Source of the DNA: Pegea sp. RAD2-039
Lineage: Eukaryota > Chordata > Thaliacea > Salpida > Salpidae
Assembly: GCA_034620365.1 (NCBI GenBank)
Contig: JAQGEQ010000071.1
Coordinates: forward strand, 1,550,001-1,614,000
DNA length: 64,000 bases
Reading direction: 5' to 3'
The translations under genes were made by a program, and so were the position numbers. Shown one piece after another: positions 786 to 26,758 of the stretch. The notes beneath the pieces are model-generated. The model was not told the origin of the DNA. It worked only from the letters and a program-made list of their open reading frames with translations, and ran no database searches. Each line of letters begins with the position of its first letter. Position 1 is the first letter of the stretch.

Positions 786-1640
786 AAGTTATGTATTCAA
801 AGATAGCTAACATTTTATTAATTTTTCGGCCCTGGTAGTAATTGAGAGGTTATAACCTTGTTGTTAACCATTTAATATCTTGCATGTTAATAAATTTGTA
901 TGCAATAACTATAACTACCGCATACGTAAATACTATTTGTAGAAGGCCTAGAAAATCAACAAGTGTTATAAAGGATCTGTTATACAGTAGTGCTATTCCG
1001 TGCTAGTTACCGTTATTTGTAATACGTTAAAGTTCAATTAAAAAGTTACTATAATTACACTACTTAGTTTATACAGTAATCTAAACGTTCAAAATTTTAA
1101 CTTGTCTTTTTCATTAATAAATAATTTTGCAAGTAGTTGTCTTCTACTAAGACATTATTTTTACAACCATTAGTAGAGGTGCAATTAGAAGCTTATTTGC
1201 ATTGATGTTTTCAAATTTGGATTTAAGATGTCTACATCCCAAAAAATTCTTTTTATAAAAAACAAGTTATCAAAAGAGCAAGTGTAAAAATACGAATAGA
1301 AAATCAAAGAATATTTGCAAAGTTGAGTCGACCAAAAGCTTTGTTGGCAACTGCTAATCAGTTGTCAATGTTAGTATCAAACGACATTATGATGCCCAGA
1401 TAACTTGAAGTGATGCTGAGTCTCTCACTGTTGATGATGATGAGATCAGGATGATATTCTTTTCCACATTTACTTCATCTACAATTTACTAATGAGATTG
1501 AGTGTACAGAAATATGGCTAAGCTTAAAAGCATTCAAAAAGTTTATTCGATCTTATATAAAAATGTCAACAAACTTCGTAATTAAAAAAACTGACTATCA
1601 TTAAAAGTAGAGACCACCAACAATAATAAAAATAAGTAAT
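786..1640. other. Intergenic, no gene seen
   Basis: AT-rich sequence between the decayed coding stretch and the 3' end of the USPL1-like gene. No open frame with coding character, RNA gene or repeat was recognised on either strand. Confidence 0.5.
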
Positions 1641-4340
1641 TTATTTCGACTTGGGCTTGAATGAAGATGCAAGCAAATCCAACAAAACATCCGGGTTATC
1701 AAAATTAGTTTTTTTCAATACTTTTCTGGTAGTATAGGGAGACGGTCTTTCAATTTCTTTGATATTGGGCTCCGAAGAACTTGATTTTTGTTCCGTTTTT
1801 TTTGGATTGTTTTGTAACTTGTCAGGCTGTGTTACAATCTTCTGATTATTTGATAAACGCTTACCATTTGTAAGCTGTTGTTTTCCTGGAATCGACTTCA
1901 ACATATTTGTATCCATGCATTCTGTTTCAGGCAACTTTCTTTTTAACGAAAGCGGGTGAGTACTCATAGAATCATCTGGCAGCGTTACGATTGAAGGCTT
2001 GTCGGGGTGAACATCTTCACTCTTGTTCTTTTGATCTTCTTTATTTACTTGATCATCAGCCATAGATCCTTAAAATTAAAATTACTTTTTTATTGTTGCT
2101 GAAGTTAATTATAAACAAGAATTTTGTAACTATCTAAAATCGGAAATATTTTCAAATATTGGGTACCTGTTAAATCCACTTTTGCTGAATCAGTAGCATC
2201 TGCAAGTGATCTGTTTTCATCAGTCACTTCAATTGCAGTATCTGTAATAAAATATCAAGCTTCGTAAGAAAGCCATACAATTTTTAAATGAAAATTAATT
2301 AGTAGAGACAAGTCACCTTCCTCTTCATCAATCATATCACCACAATCTATTTTCTGGAAGAATTCTTCTGATTTCCTTTTAGTTTTAAGCACTGCATCAG
2401 CGGTTTGTTTCTCCCAGAAGATCATATATATATTTTCAGGGGGTATGGAGGGCTTTTTAACTAGATTGCAGCTGCCTGATTTCATGTCTTTACCCATCAC
2501 AAACCACTTGTTATCTAAGTTCAAACATCACAAATTTTGTTTGTAATATCAATCATTGATCTATTGCTAAGTAACACAAATAGAAACATTCTGCTTTTAA
2601 AGTAGTTGCTTTAACGCTTAAAGTATCAAGTTTGTAAATGATTGACGCTTGTGGTGAGAGCCTGAAATCTAACCACCAAATAAATGTAATAATGGTAAGA
2701 AAAGCTACTCAAGCACTTCTATTGTATCTCTAAGCTTTCCATCAAGCTGATGAAAGAGGACCAACTACCAATTTCAGGCACAAATACTGAGATTAAAGAT
2801 AAGCGAATAAACAAATTCATACTTTGAGTGTTTCTGATCCAAGTAACCAGATGATTGTCGCTATTTCGTTGAATAATAGCATAAACAGAATATGCGAAAG
2901 TTTTAACAACAAAATCTAACATGTGGAAGTTGCAGTGATGTATTCCATTAGGAAAAGCCATAGAAATAGAAGAAGCCATGCTAAAAGTTGGAAAGATAGT
3001 TTAAAACTTTATCAAAATCTTGACACAAATACAACTTACTATTTGAAGGATATAGTCTGAGTTTGATTTTCGGATTTACAATGAGAACATGAAATCAAAT
3101 GCTGAGCATTGAGAGGATGAAAGAAATTTAGAGTTTTGGGAAATAAAATACAACCAGTTGTCTCTTCTGTAGATACTTTTTTCATGTTGCAAGTACCACA
3201 TTTCATTGAAAATCTTTCGAATGAAACAAAATGAGAACTAATAGATTAAAGTTTAAAATTTAATTCTAAAAATGATAACTACATATAAAAGTCTATCAGT
3301 AATTTTTATTTACACCTTAAATTAATGATTTGATAATCTCAGATACCTGATTGTGTTTTTAAAACATTCATCAACAACTGAATCAATTTTGAAAAAGTCT
3401 GAAAGTAGATTGACACAGTTCTCCTGGTTACCTGAAACACAATAAATTTGTCTATAATGAAAAAAATAAGTTCCAAAAGTTATTTGTTATATAATTATTT
3501 ATACTTTGATGTTTTATGACTACATACTTGATGTTAATTGATTATTTTCTCTAAATGCATTTATAGCAAAGTTTCTGGATATATTTAAATATTGTTTTCT
3601 TTCTTGTGAACTTAATCCAGTACATTGTGCAGCATCAAACATTTCACAAATTCTAAAATAAAGTTTTTGAATAAGTGGCTTTTAAATATAAAAAGTTAGT
3701 CAGTAACTTAAATTGGCATGCAAAAACTCTCATATTTTACAAAATACAAGAATACATTTTATACAAATACAATAGTGATACAAAATTATAATATAAATTA
3801 TTTTTATGGTCAATTAACTTAACTCAAGAACCATTAACTGATTTCAATCAAACAACAAATACTTTACCTATAAAACAAAGAACTTTTTCTTCGAGTGTTT
3901 AAAGCTAACCTTACAACGTTAGAATTAACTAACACTGTAATTAAAGAGTCTAAACAACGATTTTCAGAGCCATTAATCCAATGATAAACAGTGCCCTTAG
4001 ACCATATTAGTGAACTATTTAAATGATTGATAACTGCGAATACACATTAATTAATAGGATATAAACAATTTAAAAATTGTACTACAAAATTAATACCCAT
4101 GTCTTCTTTTTGTCTAGTTTTTTCAAGAACAGACTGAATATTCTTAACAAGTTCTTCATGTGACTTCAAGTAAAAAACTTTAGGTATAAATTGTTGTACT
4201 ACCTTTTCATCAGATATAGTGCACCAAGAAGTACAAGTCTTTTTACTACATAAGAGAACAGCTTTATTCATTTCAATTTTTCTATAAACAAGCTTACTTT
4301 TACAGCTTAAACAAATTGGGTGCTCATTACTTGGAGCCAT
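1641..4340 (-). CDS. USPL1: USPL1-like SUMO isopeptidase, probably inactive
   Basis: Nine exons: 4097-4340, 3868-4033, 3528-3652, 3347-3431, 3040-3213, 2823-2980, 2317-2514, 2167-2241 and 1641-2068. They join in frame to 550 aa, starting at the ATG at 4340. USPL1 is a ubiquitin-protease-fold enzyme that removes SUMO in the nucleus, at Cajal bodies. The N-terminal zinc knuckle (C10, C13, C31, C36), HW-N before the Cys box, FHPLNAQHL followed by a CSHC finger, and DNHLVTW (His308) all match the family in order. At the Cys box, human USPL1 has ALCWLDC; here NRCLDS places Arg107 at the nucleophile position and Cys108 one residue later. The Asp after the His box is also not clearly kept (WFVMGKD). 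The C-terminal 170 residues are Lys/Ser-rich and look disordered. A polyadenylation signal AATAAA overlaps the stop codon. Family assignment is firm; inactivity is inferred. Confidence 0.87.
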
Positions 4341-7300
4341 TTTTTTAAGAAACTGAAAATAATCAAAAAATCAATAAAGACAATCACATCATTATTAAAG
4401 AAAATACTACTAATATCATAACATTTAAAATTAAAACACTTATTTTAAGTGACTAAGTTAAAAATGTTATAATTTAATGATTTCTTTCTTTTAATGAATT
4501 CTTTTTTTTATTGAGCCATTCTATAACTATGTTCTAATTTATCTTATTAAACCATGCTGTTTAAATTTATCTTCTTCTCTTATTGTGTGTAGTCATAATA
4601 TTTTGTTCTGATTATAATAGCTGTATAATTTATCATCTACAGCCATTCTTTAAATAAAATAATAGAATAACTAAAAACATTTTTTAACATATCAAGCATT
4701 ATATAGATTATTTTCTAAATTCAACAAAAAAGGAATGATATAATTTCTAACATTAACATAAAAAATTGAATCTTTAATAAATTAAATTAAAAAAAGAAAA
4801 TTATAATGATAAAACCAAGATAAAAGCTATCATCATAAAAACATTCTATTGATAAGTCTTACTACTAATAAATCATCAAAAATGCTTTGGGTAAAGCTTT
4901 CAAAGAAAAAAACTATTTATAAATTAAATATACATTTTGAAACATAAAAAATAATAAATAAAATGAGGATATACAATAAACAATTATAAACAGAATATAA
5001 AAAGAAAAATATAATTATTCAAAAAATCATCACAAAATTAATTTAATTATTTTTATGTACGAATAGAAGTTGATAAATTAAAATCTCAAAAATGTAAATT
5101 TTACAGATTTAAGAAACTCATTTTAAAAGTTTAATACAAGTATTGTGTCATCTCTTTGTCAAAAACTAAAAGATAAGTTTCCATAAAGTTGTTTTTTAAC
5201 AAATCATTTAAATTTTATGTAGATAATTTAAGGTAAAAAAAAATAGTCAGATGATTAATATAGAATATTAAAATACAAACATATAAAATAAGGTTTTAAC
5301 GGAAACTATTATATATTAGTAGTATTAAATCAATATTAATAGTATAACTATAGCCTGATTAATTTAACAAAAACCTAACCACAACATGCATATTGTAAAT
5401 TTGTAAGACAGGCCTTCCCTTAAAAAGACATTTTGGAGTTTGTAAGAAAAGCCCCACTTATTAAATTGATTGATTAAATTGACTAAATTTCATGGTAGCA
5501 AATTATTGTTGAATAAAAATTATTTTCACTATTTATTTAAAATTAACTAAAAGTTATTGCATTAACAAGTAACTAAGTATTTCATATGCAAGCAAAAAAT
5601 GTAACAGGCAAATAAAATAGTAAAGTTATTTGTTAAAATAGTAATATATATTACTTAGTAACTTAGTAATACTACCTATCATGATGCAAATTTTACACAA
5701 ATTAAGGATAATAATAATCCTTATTAAATTTTATCATCTTACTATTATATAGTTATTTTTTGAACAATGAGCAATCATTTTCAAAAGAAGTCAAAATAAA
5801 AATATCAAGAAATCGCTTAAACCAAGCTATTTTCATCTCGTTTGTAGTGTACTAGCCTATAGCTTCTAACTGGGCAATTAAAGTTAAATCCCTAAAAATT
5901 TTCCTTCTCTGAATAAATGACCCCTTAAACTTTAATCACACATCCTCTAACTTTGATCTAAACGATAATAAAATATTCTAATGTCAAGTCTTTAATCATC
6001 ATTAAAAATTGGTTCAGTTACTTTATACAAAATTATCAAATCAGTTAAGACCAGAAATAGTTAGACACTGTTAAAACTTGTTACTATATACATCCGTACC
6101 AAGTTTGAATTTAACTCGTTCGTATGGAGTCATACAAGAATATAAGGCTTGAATCCATTTAAAACACACTTACTACAAAATAATTTCTTCAAAGTGGCAT
6201 ATCCTCTTCTCTATACAATAACTGTATCTATCTAAGTATGATGTCAAATCCTTTCAATGTTGATACCTTTTCTACGATTATCTTTACTTTTATGACTTCT
6301 TTATAGATCTTTCCTACATCCTCAGGTATTTCTTATTCAAAATAAGTTGACTCAACAGCTTAAAAAAATTTAGAAATCTCCTCAATAAGGTAATTATGGT
6401 CTGGATTATTCTTCCCAACTTTATCATTGAGTCAAAATTTTAAAATATTACTTAATTCTGCCATTCTCTTTATTTTCTTCACTTATTTTGTATTAACTTG
6501 TATTTTTGTTTCATAATTTATATTTTATTTATGCCTCTACAGTGCTCTTATTTTTCTACTCTAATTTATTATTTTGGGCTAAATAAATAAATTTTATCAG
6601 GGGTGTAAGAAATTTCTAAAGTATCTACTTAATAGAGACCTTGGGAGTTTGGATAAGGAAGTTTTTTATCGGTAGCTTGCATCAAATACTACCGAAATAG
6701 AAAAAAAAATTTCTTATTATTATTTTTACTATTCAGTCAAAAACTCGTTTTAAATATCGTGTCAAAAATATCTTATGTAAGGTAATATGTTTAAATATTT
6801 GAATATACTTTGCAACAAGCATATATTTGGTGAGAATATCATTTTAGGTTTGTAAAAGCTTTCTTTGGCTGTCTTTTTATAAACTATATTGGTCTTCTAT
6901 ATTCATGGAAATAAAAGCTAGAATTTCTACTGCAATGTAACTTTTAAAATACCAAATGTCTTTTTGTATAATTTCTGTATTTCACAAATCTAATTTTACT
7001 TAATTTAAGAAATTCTTAAATGGAGAATTTCTAGTAAATGACTAGAAATTGTTTTTTTATTCACCATATCAATAAAATAAATAAATATCAATTTTTTAAA
7101 GAACATTGTTTTATAAGGATTTTTTAAGACGTTTTATTTTGCAAAGCTTAATAAAAAATTACAAATAAAAATACTATGACAAACTGTTAAAAAACCACAA
7201 AATTCATTTTTCTTGTTTACATTTAAGTTTGACTTTTGAAAAGAAAATATATTTTTAAGATTAAAATAAGTTTATTTATTTGCTTATATATGAAATAATG

Positions 7301-8259
7301 CATGACTGCAGTTAAAAAATCATAAAGTTCTATTTGCAAACTTTAAAGTTAACATTTGATTAAGGAAATTAACATTGGTTTTACATTATGCAACAAACTA
7401 TTTTGTAAATTCTACTGTAAAATTTGCTACTAATAAAAGTAAGTTTAAAAAAAGTACTTCTGAAAGATTTTAAACTATTTTTAGTTTTTTGTGAATTACT
7501 TGTATTAGCTAGATAAAATAGACTATTTATAGATTCTGATAATGTTTATCTTTTATTTCCTTAGTAATGATTCTAATTTATAAAACTTCTATTTAGTTAA
7601 TTTAATTTATATAACATAATGGATTATAAGAAATTATAAATATTTTTAATTGGACCTTAATTTTGAGTGATTTTGAAGATTATTTAGATACTTTTTGATG
7701 TAATGCAACCAATTTATAAATTGATTATATTTTTAGGTATAATATACAGCTATAATATATATTAATATAGTTTTATTAATTCAAAAAATTTTTAAGATTG
7801 TTTCCTAATAAAGAATTGATTTAATTTTATGATGTTTAAGTTGATCATTAGAGTAATTTTCTTCTTTTTATAATAATTATTAGTTATAATAATAACTAAA
7901 TAAGTTGTGTTTTGTTGCTGATAGTCTATATAGCTCTAAAAGTAAAACTATGAAACTACTTTATTAATTTATTATGGCATTTTGGTTGAATGTTTATAGA
8001 GTATTCAATCAAATTGGTTACATTATTTTATATGATTAATATTACATTAATATATATTATATAATTTATATATATTAATTTTATTCAAAATTCTAGTTTA
8101 ATACAATGATTTAATTATAATTTAAACATTTTAATTCTTGTTATTATTAATGAGTATTTTAAATTAGGTTTAATTAGTTTGTTGTATAAATAATTATTTA
8201 TATGTAATTATTTTACAGTGATCTTAATCTTTTCACAGAAAAATTGAGTGATAATAATC
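4341..8259. other. Long AT-rich gap
   Basis: About 3.9 kb of very AT-rich sequence between the start of the USPL1-like gene and the GOLGA7 coding exon on the opposite strand. No coding exon was recognised. Acceptor-like sites end at about 8218 and 8238 (TTTTCACAG), so part of this stretch is probably an intron in the 5' untranslated region of GOLGA7. The two genes are divergent. Confidence 0.5.
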
Positions 8260-8673
8260 ATGTCTGTGCCTAGCAGTGCTGCAAATATGGAAGTTGGTAA
8301 TACCATTTATGTTCAACGAGATTATTCAGAGGGCATGGTCCCAAAGTTCCAAGAAAAGTTTCCATCAGAGCTTGATGGAATTGTTGAACCAGATACTTAT
8401 CATACTACAATACGTCATTTAAACCACCTTTATGAAGCAGCTGAATCCATGACGCCAACAGCCTATTGGGAAGGTACATTTGCTTGCTTAACAGGATACT
8501 TATTTTTAGGTTGCACCGATACTCAGTATAAAAAATGCTTGAAAAGAGTGACTTCATTCTTAGATGAGCAAAACAAAACAATTTATTGGCCTGCTGGTGT
8601 TATAATCCATGACCCCTTTCCTACTGGTTTGAGGTCAATTCAAATAACAATATATAGTCGTGAAGCTCGTTAA
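8260..8673 (+). CDS. GOLGA7: Golgin A7 / Erf4-family palmitoylation cofactor
   Basis: A 137-residue protein, the same length as human GOLGA7 (GCP16). The family partners DHHC palmitoyltransferases (DHHC9 in mammals, Erf2 in yeast) at the Golgi to palmitoylate Ras-type proteins. Family marks in order are IYVQRDYSEG near the N-terminus, FQEKFPSEL, IRHLNHLYEAAE, the Cys-containing hydrophobic stretch ACLTGYLFLGC, and near the end DPFPTGLRSIQITIY. The start is the ATG at 8260; an upstream in-frame GTG at 8248 is not a plausible start. The coding part is a single exon, and an acceptor 20-40 bases upstream suggests a 5'UTR intron. A polyadenylation signal AATAAA lies at 8820-8825. Nothing looks damaged. 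Confidence 0.94.
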   Translation: MSVPSSAANMEVGNTIYVQRDYSEGMVPKFQEKFPSELDGIVEPDTYHTTIRHLNHLYEAAESMTPTAYWEGTFACLTGYLFLGCTDTQYKKCLKRVTSFLDEQNKTIYWPAGVIIHDPFPTGLRSIQITIYSREAR

Positions 8674-16234: not shown

Positions 16235-17782
16235 TTAGGAAAATATTGAAGATACAAAGAATATGTTCCATATGGCAAAACAGGCACGGTCAATTATTTC
16301 TTTATAAATCACATATTCGTCAAAAGCAGAGAATAAAATCCAGGTAAGTAAAGCAATTGAACTACACAAACAAATATATCCAAATAAATCAGAAAGAGGA
16401 AGAAAAATCCACAAGCAAGATAATAAAGCAGAAAAAATATAACCAATCACAATGCAAGTTCCCAATACGATGGGTGTTTTAAATGCACACAATGATTTTT
16501 TAGCTTCATTTCTTGCTTCATACCCTTCAAAGCGTTCATCTATTTGTTTTGTTAAGTTGTTTCGATAATCCGATAGTTTATCTTCACTCCCTAATTTTTT
16601 CATCTCATCAAATTTTTTTAAAACATTATTCTTATATCCTTGGTGGTAATTTTTTAAATAATCTGCATTAATGAAGTAGGGAAACTTTTCACGACAATTA
16701 TCCATCAGTTTAGTGTAAGAATCGACACATTTATTCAGAATTGTCATATTGGATGCTTCCGCTGTGGCTTCTAACAGTGTTTTTGGTTTTGGAAAGTCGT
16801 TTTCATCATACATTTTGACATAGGACTTGAAATATTCCAACAACTCATTACACGTCACAGTTAAACCATTCACTTCTTTTTTCTTCAAATTTTTTGGTGC
16901 CAATAGCAACGGAGCAAGATTAAAAATATGTTCTTTAAATTGTTCTTCTACATCTTTAATTTGACCTTTAAAATCAGGATCACAAGCAACTTTCAGGCCT
17001 GGATGTGGCATCAAATAACAAAGCAACTCATCAAAGCATGAATGTATATGATTTCTTACTTCTTGAAGATCTGAATGTTTATCCGCAAAAAAGTTGATTT
17101 TTTTTTGTAACAGTTGAAAACCTCCTTTTTCGCCATACTCATATTGGTAAGGGTAACTCCAATCTCTAATCAAAAACATAAGTGATTGAAAAGGCTTATA
17201 CTGAGAATTCGTAAGAGCTAGTTTTCCATATTCAGTAAATAGTTGTAAATGTTCCAAATCATTTTCTTGGATGTGTTGAGATAAGTTATAAATTTGAATT
17301 GAACTTAGTAAAGTACTAAGTGAAAATATTGTAACACATTCTTCCATACTTGATTCTCCATCAAATGCACCCTGTGTGTCCATAAGCAAGATTGCAACTG
17401 TCTCACCATCTGGTAAATCTATCTTAAAGATATTGCTCCACAGAAGAATGCCAGAAGTGTCTCTTTCAGAGCCTCCCCTCCATGAGAAACCTTCTAGTGA
17501 CTTATCTGGAGAACCAAGCCAGTTCTGCTTATCATCTGTATTAAGATACTTCAACAAAAAGTTTAAGAAAAATGATTTGCCTTTTCTAAATGCTCCAGCA
17601 ACTGAAATCACTACAGCAGGTAAGTTACCAGCTTCATTTTTATCGATAATATCATGTAATGCTTGCTCATCAAATTTAAATTTACCTCCACAGGGCAGAA
17701 GAATTGGTATTGGTCTAGGGTTTTTAATAAACTCATCACTACAATGGCTAACTTCTGAGACAAAATTATGTTGAGAATCCAT
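16235..17782 (-). CDS. ATL: Atlastin GTPase, intronless, short C-terminus
   Basis: A 515-aa single-exon protein. Atlastins are dynamin-related GTPases that fuse ER membranes into the tubular network. The GTPase motifs are all present: P-loop GAFRKGKS (63-70), Thr109 in SERDTSGILLWS, DTQG (135-138), and the RD guanine motif in LIRDWSYPYQYEYG (206-207). A helical middle domain follows, then two closely spaced membrane segments at roughly 435-485. After these the protein ends in DEYVIYKEIIDRACFAIWN and a few hydrophobic residues. That covers the start of the post-membrane helix, but most of the cytosolic tail seen in human ATL1 (558 aa) is missing. Animal atlastin genes usually have many introns, so this may be a retrocopy or a lineage with intron loss. 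The open frame is intact, so it is probably functional. Confidence 0.92.
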   Translation of the reverse strand: MDSQHNFVSEVSHCSDEFIKNPRPIPILLPCGGKFKFDEQALHDIIDKNEAGNLPAVVISVAGAFRKGKSFFLNFLLKYLNTDDKQNWLGSPDKSLEGFSWRGGSERDTSGILLWSNIFKIDLPDGETVAILLMDTQGAFDGESSMEECVTIFSLSTLLSSIQIYNLSQHIQENDLEHLQLFTEYGKLALTNSQYKPFQSLMFLIRDWSYPYQYEYGEKGGFQLLQKKINFFADKHSDLQEVRNHIHSCFDELLCYLMPHPGLKVACDPDFKGQIKDVEEQFKEHIFNLAPLLLAPKNLKKKEVNGLTVTCNELLEYFKSYVKMYDENDFPKPKTLLEATAEASNMTILNKCVDSYTKLMDNCREKFPYFINADYLKNYHQGYKNNVLKKFDEMKKLGSEDKLSDYRNNLTKQIDERFEGYEARNEAKKSLCAFKTPIVLGTCIVIGYIFSALLSCLWIFLPLSDLFGYICLCSSIALLTWILFSAFDEYVIYKEIIDRACFAIWNIFFVSSIFS

Positions 17783-22985: not shown

Positions 22986-25753
22986 TTGATTTTAAAACAG
23001 TCCATCTAAAATAACCAGCTTATCAAATTGCTTTCAATGTATTCAAAAAAATTTGAAAATATTTTTAAACAGCTTTTTATTAATTTTGACTTTTCTTGTA
23101 TTTTTGTCAACAATAGACTAACACTTGAAAAACTCTTACAATATAGTCTATGCATTACTTTAATTTCCTCAGTAATTTCCGCTTTTGTTGTAAATAAGTT
23201 GAGATACTTGAAAAATTAAAGTTTTCTAACTATAAACTCTGATATTGATTTAAGCTATTTGCAGTTTCATATGACTATATACTATTTGAAGCTAATTTTG
23301 AATACGACTTTGAAATAGTTTTCCTTATGGCTGAAGATATGCTTAAATTAACATTAAAAATCAAAATAGTCTTAAAAATCTGATAAATGAAATGATATTC
23401 CTATCACACTTATCAATTTGTTGATGTCTTTTTTCATTTGTGAATATAATAAATTGCTAGTTTATTATCAACGTTAACGCAATAAAACATTTGACTATTC
23501 AATTCTCATTTTGTGTCTTGTTAACATTTTTACAAATCTAATTTTAAATTTAATGAGCTTCAAAATAAATTGATCGTTCTATTTGAGACAGAGTGGATTT
23601 TATGTAATTGTGCTTATAAAAGTAACTAACTTATCAAACTGTCTTTAACTAGCAAGTCTTTCAACTAGAGGTAGCGTTTACTTATTCTAAATATTGTTAC
23701 AATAGCTAATTCGACATTTTCATTATTTTAATACTGTACGTAGCCTTTAAAAAATCTTTTCTAATTTTAATGATGAATTTTTTTTATTTTAAAGTTGAAA
23801 ATATTTTTTAAATTTATTTTTTCAGTCTTAAGAACATCTCAGCTACTTTTCATTTAGCTTACAATTATTTTTCTTTCGACGAAGAAAGATTTATAAATAA
23901 TTTAAATAATTATTTTGTTTGAAGAAGTCTGCATACCGTTCATTATAGTACTTAAATATGATTTAACTTTACAAACACAAAACTTGAAAAATATTTTACA
24001 GAATCTTTTAAAATATTTACTTAAAACTTACTTTTTTTCGTTTAATTTTCAAAAAATATTGATTCCTATTATAAACAATTTCATTAAATTTAGAAACGTT
24101 TTTAGATTTGTTTCAAAATATTTCGAAAATTAGCTGAGGAATTTTGTAAAAGCTTTATTATATTTTTACTTGAGCCTTGCACGTTTGCTGACAGCTCACT
24201 TTTGATGGTAGACATATAAGAAAACGCGTCAGAGGATGGACGTGTTTGCTCATTTAATTTTTTCCTGTTCAAAAACTTTCCCATGAGTTCTAGGTTAATG
24301 ATCTTTACCAGTTGATTGTCATTAGAAAGCAACCTAGAGAATAAAGTTTAATTGCTACTGGCTTCAAAATTAATTTCATAAAAGTGCAGAAAAAGTTTAA
24401 ATGGAAGTTTTAATGAAGGTAATTAAAGGTTAGATTGAAAACTAAATTTATAAATAGAATTATACATCAATTTATTTGTATCAGCAGTTTTTGGTTAAGT
24501 TGTAGAGTTTTTCGGAGTATTTTTCAGACACAATTTTTGATACTTGCTTAACAGCTTTTCAATGAAAGATAAAATCTAATATCAATGAATTGAAAAAAAG
24601 TTTGCAAAAGTCAATGGCTATAGTAATCTTTAGATTCTTCTGCTTCTGATTTACATATACATTTTAGATAATCTAAACTATGGTTGTATACAAAAAAGAG
24701 ACAAAAATGAAGAAAGTCTAGTTTCAAATACATTTTTGAAACTATAATAATTGTTCAAATGTAAATCTTATTCATCCTATTGGCGGAAATCGAGTAACTG
24801 CTTAACTATGATTGAACAAACTAGTCTACTTCATTTACTTCAAAAAAGTACCTGTGTTTTATTCGAGCTATAATAGTAACTAATAATTAGCATTTAATTA
24901 TATATAGAAAGTTTACTATAAAAATAGATTAATAGTATTTTCAGTCATCGCCCACCTTGTCGCCTTCAACTTTACTTTAAAATTACTTTAGATTTAAATT
25001 TAAAGCTTAATAGCTCAATCTTGATATATAGTTTGAAATATATTTTCAACTTTATTTTCAGAGAAAGAAAGTTTGTCGATAGACATTTTTATTGATCAGA
25101 AAGTTTTACATTTATGTTCAATCCCTTTAGCTTTAAGCAGTATTTGGAAATATTTATATTTGGAGCTTTGTAATTTCACTTAGTTTGAAAAAAACTTATG
25201 TGTTTTAGAACCTTTTTATTTTAAAAATTTAAACTAAAAGAATTTTATAATTCAATAATTTAAACAAATTTTGCTACAAATTTCATGCTAAATAAATGAA
25301 ATTATGGTTCCAAATAAATTATTTATCTCTAGAATTTTGAATATTGAATTATAGAGCAGTCATTTGTAAAAAGTAAACAATTTACAGAGTATTTATTCAT
25401 ACAACTATTTCTTAATTAAAAATATCATTAAGAAAATTGTATTGCTTTATTATTTCCGGTATCATGTTTACTTTCTACGAATTCCATAATATTTAGTCAG
25501 TATAATGTTTGATATCTTTAGTTTTGCAAAATGATAAAACAAGCTTTAGAAAAGATAAAAAAAGCTTAGAAATGTTTTGTTTTGATGAGTCAACATTAAA
25601 GTTTTTAATTCAATTTAGCTTAGCTATACCTTTTTTTTTAATAGCTCTCAGTAAAGTTTCAATTGGTATTTTGTGAATAATTTCTTATATGTAACAGATT
25701 AGAGAGTTTCTTATAAAAACTTGCATATTTAATAATTATTATTTATTTATTTA
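22986..25753. other. Intergenic, phased A/T tracts
   Basis: About 2.8 kb with no confident gene. At 23.9-24.13 kb, runs of three to six A or T recur at about ten-base steps. A minus-strand open frame at about 24160-24335 is less AT-rich and reads NLELMGKFLNRKKLNEQTRP. It is flanked by an acceptor-like TCTCTAG and a donor-like GTAAAA. It could be a lone exon or element remnant; no partner exon was found. Confidence 0.4.
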
Positions 25754-26758
25754 ATGATTAATCATTTTATGATTTTTTTAGAGTTTATTAAATCAAAAAT
25801 GTTTGATCATAATTCGAGTACGTCTAACATCAGCCACATCTTCTGGAGTTCAACAAACACCATGATTGGATTATGGTGTTTAAACATAACATTTATCATT
25901 GGGTCGATTTCAATTTTGGCAATTCTGTTAGTTTACCGTAGAAAACGTACTGGATGGAACAAAACAAGTCAAATTATTCAAATAACTCTCGCTATTTTAA
26001 TGTCGGTTTTTATAATTGTTAGATTAGTATTGTCTGGATTTGTTTTAAGCAGCAACTCATTAATTCAAAACAACAGAAATGCTAATTGCAAAATTTTGAT
26101 AGCAGTTTCCAGCTGCTGGCTTGATGTCACCGTCTTGCCTGTGTTTCTCTTTCTATGGCATAGACAAAAAATTTTGTACCGTCAGCCTTTGTTAGAACAC
26201 CTTCATTCATCTTTCATAAAGTTTCTCAGCAACTTTTGTCTAGCTTTAATACTTGTCAAAACTATAATTTACCCAACATGGTTTATTATTTCAAAGGAAA
26301 TTTACTTTCTACCAAACTTTGGTTGCATGGTAAAACGAAATGAGAGTGTAGTTGGCTGGGTCGCGTTATTTATCAACCTTATTATGTTTTCTACAATTAC
26401 TGTTTTATGTGTATTATACATTGTACCTCTGTACGAACAAATAAGCAGTAAACGGAAAAGTTCAGAAGAAGGCAGAGGCTCTACAAGAAGTAAAACTAAG
26501 TTGTTAAAGTTTACTATTTCAAACACTGCTTGTATTGGAATTTGTTTTTCTGCAACTCTTATTTCTATACTTGTAAATAAGTTGGTATTCACTTTAGAAA
26601 ACCCTCCATATACTAGATACATGGTCAATAATGCTGTTCTGTTTGTTTACCAAGGCACACTCCTTTTCTTATTTGATCGTTGTAGTGATGTAGTACTGGA
26701 ACTTTATCAAAAATCTAAAAAACATATAAGCTTAAAGAAGAAAAGTTTAGTAGTTTAG
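25754..26758 (+). CDS. Intronless orphan seven-helix receptor-like protein
   Basis: A 334-aa single-exon frame with seven hydrophobic helices. In order they start near LWCLNITFIIGSISILAILL, TSQIIQITLAILMSVFII, KILIAVSSCWLDVTVLPVF, FLSNFCLALILVKTIIYP, WVALFINLIMFSTITVLCVL, FTISNTACIGICFSATLISI and NAVLFVYQGTLLFLF. The short N-terminus has N-glycosylation sites (NSS, NIS) after the internal Met at about residue 16, which may be the real start. The third helix ends LWHRQ rather than DRY, and there is no NPxxY in the last helix, so it is not a typical rhodopsin-class receptor. The third inner loop is basic and serine-rich. A polyadenylation signal AATAAA is at 26821. It is probably a lineage-specific membrane receptor; ligand and family are unknown. 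Confidence 0.68.
   Translation: MINHFMIFLEFIKSKMFDHNSSTSNISHIFWSSTNTMIGLWCLNITFIIGSISILAILLVYRRKRTGWNKTSQIIQITLAILMSVFIIVRLVLSGFVLSSNSLIQNNRNANCKILIAVSSCWLDVTVLPVFLFLWHRQKILYRQPLLEHLHSSFIKFLSNFCLALILVKTIIYPTWFIISKEIYFLPNFGCMVKRNESVVGWVALFINLIMFSTITVLCVLYIVPLYEQISSKRKSSEEGRGSTRSKTKLLKFTISNTACIGICFSATLISILVNKLVFTLENPPYTRYMVNNAVLFVYQGTLLFLFDRCSDVVLELYQKSKKHISLKKKSLVV

Follow-up and report, generated by a model that had tools for sequence, protein, structure and literature searches.

USPL1 normally removes the SUMO tag from other proteins. The family has been described from metazoans, vertebrates as well as invertebrates (PMC4281951). In human cells, USPL1 is reported to be needed for Cajal bodies and for growth, and a catalytically inactive mutant is reported to be enough (PMC3937775; PMC10919355). 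The protein is found with the Little Elongation Complex and at snRNA genes (PMC3937775), and its knockout is described as resembling that of ICE1 (PMC9225015). The Drosophila protein CG8229, as described, has limited homology to the N-terminus of USPL1 and binds Ice1 and Ice2, but is without the catalytic domain (PMC3937775).

Loss of catalysis has precedents among other USPs. Pseudo-DUBs can act as scaffold parts of larger complexes, according to one account (PMC10919355). The same source presents USP39/Sad1 as a pseudo-DUB with a USP fold that lacks the full triad, USP39 acting in snRNP biology; it is a different USP from USPL1, is without Cys and His and works in tri-snRNP, and some reports claim residual activity for it (PMC10919355). 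USP53 and USP54, annotated as dead, proved active, USP54 having a canonical triad (PMC12037411), and USP52 has been reported to cut via non-conserved cysteines (PMC10919355). The literature on USPL1 that we searched (including insects, CG8229, pseudoenzymes, the Little Elongation Complex, and metazoan orthologs) holds, in its accessible portions, no report of a natural USPL1 that lacks the Cys.

The locus considered here lies in the window, a 64,000-nucleotide stretch of the genome of the salp Pegea sp. RAD2-039 with a G+C content of 27.5%. A gene of nine exons runs on the minus strand from 4340 to 1641. The frame is open for 550 codons and a stop, giving a product of 550 aa, and all eight introns have GT-AG borders. 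Its features, in window positions, are the following:

4097..4340, minus strand: exon 1, start codon and putative N-terminal zinc module
4233-4313, minus strand: the putative N-terminal zinc module in exon 1, C-x2-C ... C-x4-C, Cys10/13/31/36
3868..4033, minus strand: exon 2, Cys box; flanking introns of 63 and 215 bases, GT-AG
3528..3652, minus strand: exon 3, part of the USP-like domain; position of human R324 is Gln175 (3538-3540)
3347..3431, minus strand: exon 4, part of the USP-like domain; positions of human M330/S332/F335 are Gln181/Asn183/Asn186
3040..3213, minus strand: exon 5, fingers with zinc Cys pairs CGTC (3189-3200) and CSHC (3078-3089); PF15499 match in the genome search
2823..2980, minus strand: exon 6, palm; His box DNHLVTW, with His308 at the catalytic position (2851-2853)
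2317..2514, minus strand: exon 7, end of the domain, altered Asp region WFVMGKD (2486-2506), start of the tail
2167..2241, minus strand: exon 8, tail
1641..2068, minus strand: exon 9, Lys/Ser-rich tail with SIM-like IVTLPDD; stop codon 1641-1643

Exon 5 has two rival AG acceptors 24 bases apart, one before 3213 (550 aa) and the other before 3237, which adds 8 aa (558 aa). The inner acceptor fits the family better: the domain scores 131.1 bits against the Peptidase_C98 profile (PF15499) with the shorter exon and 117.4 bits with the longer one, a gap of 13.7 bits. It also reproduces the length of 550 aa and the numbering of His308 in the initial annotation of this DNA, a reading by eye of the letters and their open frames. 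The N-terminal Cys spacing only weakly resembles the N-terminus of human USPL1; the likeness falls short of significance, with 54 of 1000 shuffled sequences scoring equally well.

Judged by its sequence, the product is a USPL1 homologue by descent, nearly the whole PF15499 profile being matched. Even with the longer exon 5, the joined protein covers positions 3-272 of the 272 in the profile (E 3.2e-32; 112.7 bits against a cut-off of 27). Among solved structures the only significant matches are the USPL1 chains 7p99 (E 2.3e-13) and 7zju (E 6.2e-13); in the PDB search by phmmer the C-terminal part alone was aligned (query 204-365), and the blastp alignment started at Trp100. Chains 7p99_A and 7zju_A carry the name SUMO-specific isopeptidase USPL1, and both are taken to be the human protein (PMC8983731). 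Identity to human USPL1 over the domain is 22% (55 of 253 aligned residues, MAFFT). All four finger cysteines are kept, Cys212, 215, 249 and 252 corresponding to human 361, 364, 397 and 400 in the MAFFT alignment, from which their presumed zinc role is also taken. With regard to the USP blocking loops, whose absence is a mark of USPL1, the alignment has past the second zinc Cys pair a 2-residue insertion relative to human and nothing else. Common to the window protein and human USPL1 (MEROPS C98; 7p99/7zju) are thus the domain, the His, the finger zinc cysteines, and an HPLNA stretch. The window protein, 550 aa in all, differs in having Arg for the nucleophile Cys, Cys for Trp237 and Lys or Gly for Asp472, and in being altered at each of the ten SUMO contacts examined.

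The Cys box is encoded by exon 2. Residues 99-118 of the protein read HWINGSENRCLDSLITVLVN; the codon at 3957-3959 gives Arg107 and that at 3954-3956 gives Cys108. The initial annotation had set this stretch without gaps against a human Cys box. The human sequence given there was right, QWKNAYALCWLDCILSALVH being present in both 7p99_A and 7zju_A, and the gap-free register is upheld by the profile alignment of the protein and by MAFFT against human. The PF15499 columns and three MAFFT modes agree with it in placing Arg107 at the nucleophile and Cys108 at the neighboring Trp. Human Cys236 is column 11 of PF15499: a human fragment whose ninth residue is this Cys aligns from column 3, and one that begins with the Cys aligns from column 11. 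Since His99 of the window protein is at column 3 and Leu109 at column 13, Arg107 is at column 11 and Cys108 at column 12 (Trp), unless an insertion and a deletion between columns 3 and 13 offset each other. A compensated gap of this kind, with Cys108 at column 11 and the Trp deleted, was considered and rejected: residues 100-109 fill columns 4-13 one to one, a construct starting with Cys108 aligned only from Leu109 at column 13, and the helix register would break. Human Asn231 (here Asn102), Leu238, and Asp239 keep step with Arg107 rather than with Cys108; by analogy with other USPs, Asn231 would be the oxyanion residue.

The rest of the catalytic center is preserved in part. Human His456 is kept as His308, and the His box DNHLVTW and the finger Cys pairs are retained in MAFFT and the profile, as had been claimed. 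The Asp region is changed, also as claimed, to WFVMGKD: the position of human Asp472 falls on Lys326 by MAFFT or on Gly325 by counting from the Trp, under neither counting an Asp, and human Asp473 pairs with Asp327 in MAFFT. Two of the three triad positions (Cys and Asp) are therefore changed. Because the USP nucleophile and the Asp are both lost, the protein would be a pseudo-isopeptidase; this identity, already suggested in the initial annotation, is well supported by the alignments, and the loss of chemistry appears close to shown. In function it would fall with the USP39-like pseudo-DUBs of the USP fold, Cys and Asp being lost and His kept.

The surface that holds SUMO has been remodelled as well. 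Ten SUMO2-contact positions were drawn from those described in PMC8983731, the window residues being read from the MAFFT alignment, and none of the ten is kept. To each of 16 changes we assigned a cost, the loss in Pfam-profile bits when the human fragment carries that single change. The two dearest are W237C (6.9 bits) and C236R (6.8 bits); D472K costs 4.3 bits, the Asp change being scored as Lys only. Eight of the contact changes cost 1.4 to 5.2 bits (Y451R 5.2, H421A 4.7, H493Y 3.8, F335N 3.5, V423P 3.3, F457L 3.3, N398S 1.9, S332N 1.4), and the other two, R324Q and M330Q, cost 0.4 and 0.0. Of changes absent from the window protein and scored for comparison, H456A costs 4.5, C397S 5.0, and I241A 2.9 bits, the last being the sole non-contact change scanned in the N-terminal half. 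Ten random human-to-window changes, drawn from 111 other mismatched positions in the C-terminal half only, cost 0.2-3.3 bits, with a mean of 1.2. Against these controls, the changes hit sites normally held by the family, not merely drifting ones; it should be noted that conserved columns are dearer by construction, and that the bit comparison tells that conserved sites changed, not why. Most SUMO-contact residues are described as conserved in USPL1 orthologues, and R324 as conserved in all of them, yet R324, like M330, is weakly held in the Pfam profile here, so that these two tell little; Val423 is said to meet SUMO via its backbone (PMC8983731).

The gene appears to be single. In the assembly (105.7 Mb, 387 contigs), six-frame, exon-by-exon searches that scored the best candidates only found no second PF15499 gene (the profile hit two exons, each of them part of the present gene) and no paralogue with an intact site (six matches to the protein itself, again all in this gene). 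No relative came from viral, prokaryotic, and plasmid collections either (2 and 12 pattern matches), eukaryotes being outside these collections. As a control for the Cys box, the Cys is kept in all 21 of the PF00443 USP matches examined, out of 99 in the assembly; the 21 all start at column 1 or 2, many are near-identical copies, and at least 12 further such matches were left out. One PF00443 family has frames of 437 aa arranged head-to-tail every ~4.94 kb on contigs C18 and C250 (C18:30373-46050, C250:21937-32672, and also C249:1769746-1770597); the copies examined hardly differ from one another, and all retain the Cys box. Another multicopy USP family, with frames of ~530-590 aa, is found on the short contigs C333, C150, C162, C318, and C164 and keeps the Cys box in the five of five examined; it is possibly a repeat or a passenger of a mobile element.

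SUMO itself is encoded in the assembly (two exon matches, E 3.7e-8 and 0.004; gene on C1:2322309-2322589), and there are eight SENP/Ulp-type matches on four contigs, some of which may be element-borne. DeSUMOylation therefore need not depend on the USPL1-homologue gene. ICE2 is encoded as well (one NARG2_C match); coilin gave no match in the assembly, in a search without a positive control. Ulp1/SENP-like PF02902 matches lie at two adjacent places in C58:802117-807464 and at C293:609467-609745, and may be duplicated genes or element-borne. The best Rad60-SLD match of the genome (C77:64671-64883) looks by eye like NEDD8, not SUMO.

We consider it probable, from the sequence and by analogy with the human and fly proteins, that the window protein is a pseudo-isopeptidase kept for a non-catalytic role of USPL1, with the grip on SUMO lost. 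Cleavage by the USP mechanism would be impossible, and the bulk and charge of Arg107 would intrude on the site that the Gly-Gly end of SUMO must occupy. The old cleft would have lost its hold on the SUMO tail, with the USP fold surviving as a structural module. The protein would act at snRNA genes or in Cajal bodies, together with the Little Elongation Complex (ICE1/ICE2/ELL), as the human and fly literature suggests, the N-terminal zinc module being the likely contact to the complex; SUMO removal would pass to SENP-type proteases. We infer a scaffold role in the snRNA transcription machinery because inactive human USPL1 is reported to suffice and because CG8229, without a catalytic domain, binds Ice1/Ice2. 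CG8229, related to USPL1 and without deSUMOylase chemistry, would match the role proposed here; compared by description, the window protein keeps the domain in altered form, whereas the fly protein lacks it altogether. The window protein fits between human USPL1 and CG8229, its domain being kept and the chemistry and the SUMO grip apparently lost. The retention of His308 is a point against a pure scaffold, since a pure scaffold would not need it.

A pseudo-isopeptidase could instead continue to bind SUMO or SUMO chains and serve as a reader or protector of conjugates, using the remaining contacts or the SIM-like motif of the tail. The domain and the fingers are kept, the tail holds IVTLPDD, and there is a SUMO in the genome to be bound. 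All ten listed contacts differ, however, including the clamp of the Gly-Gly end, where Phe457/Met330 have become Leu/Gln, and Tyr451, which is now Arg. The proposal of the initial annotation that SUMO is bound but not cut finds no support here as far as the canonical cleft is concerned, and SUMO reading via the old cleft is unlikely on the sequence. Nor is the tail motif beyond chance: when the tail was shuffled 5000 times, at least one such motif arose in 1562 cases. We hold a SUMO-binding role of either kind to be unlikely. Far less credible, and the least probable of the readings considered, is an active protease that uses Cys108 as a shifted nucleophile, or some other non-canonical Cys, perhaps on another modifier. 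A Cys does lie one residue off and the His is kept, the position of Met330 carries Gln, which is described as conserved in USPs (PMC8983731), and the 'dead' USP53/54 that proved active (PMC12037411) and USP52 with its non-conserved cysteines (PMC10919355) offer precedents. But Leu109, Asp110 and what follows keep the human register, which puts Cys108 in the place of Trp237, one helix step along, and the spacing from Asn102 fits Arg107; the shifted nucleophile of the initial annotation is not supported by this. The triad position is without Asp, the residues that bind the SUMO tail are lost, and USP54, with its canonical triad, is not a close parallel (PMC12037411).

The Cys-box reading comes from one assembly and could in principle be an artefact of an assembly or base-call error, of a wrong exon 2 or of a decaying locus. 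One error cannot account for two adjacent codons together with the Asp and the SUMO-contact changes. A motif scan of the six frames of 1500-8000 found nothing usable as an exon 2 that carries the canonical Cys motif; the one match, at 7616, lies ~3.3 kb upstream of the start codon, with a stop directly after it. The nine exons are open with GT-AG borders, and no second copy was found. With identity to human down to 22%, a neutral relic would not be expected to have kept an open frame, its splice borders, and all four finger zinc cysteines, which argues against a dead pseudogene. An artefact seems very unlikely. Slightly more room, although still little, is left for a scaffold that has nothing to do with the Little Elongation Complex, its USP fold having taken on a new function elsewhere like USP39 in tri-snRNP, which overlaps the first half of the explanation that we prefer. 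Such a role would agree with the service of pseudo-DUBs as scaffolds in larger complexes (PMC10919355) and with the missing coilin match, from a search that had no positive control; against it stand the ICE2 match in the assembly and the links described for human and fly, which point to the Little Elongation Complex (PMC3937775; PMC9225015).

The preferred reading, a non-catalytic USPL1 that serves the snRNA transcription machinery, can be extended from one gene to its lineage. The whole lineage may have turned USPL1 into a SUMO-blind subunit of that machinery with a USP fold, a living intermediate toward the domain-less form of the fly, in which Arg107 and the remodelled cleft would make a new binding site. 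We put this forward tentatively, as a possibility that we would sooner doubt than assume. If true, animals would retain USPL1 for its non-catalytic role and not for the cleavage of SUMO. A species that has lost the nucleophile and the SUMO grip while retaining the domain would be a natural test of which function of USPL1 is selected. Rescue of USPL1-depleted cells by the window protein, together with binding to ICE1, would mean that scaffolding is sufficient.

As to the surroundings of the gene, Rfam gave no match on the window at the gathering threshold, and Chitin_bind_4 and 7tm_6 (both searched without a positive control) and COX1 gave none in the assembly. A single-exon ORF of 340 aa at 25736-26755 (plus strand) has by eye the look of a seven-pass membrane protein, with no Pfam match at E 1. 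At 8260-8670 (plus strand) lies a single-exon gene of the Golgin A7/ERF4 family (PF10256, E 2.1e-28), and at 16238-17782 (minus strand) a single-exon GTPase of the GBP family (515 aa; PF02263, E 2e-75), which has a hydrophobic C-terminal stretch and is by eye atlastin-like.
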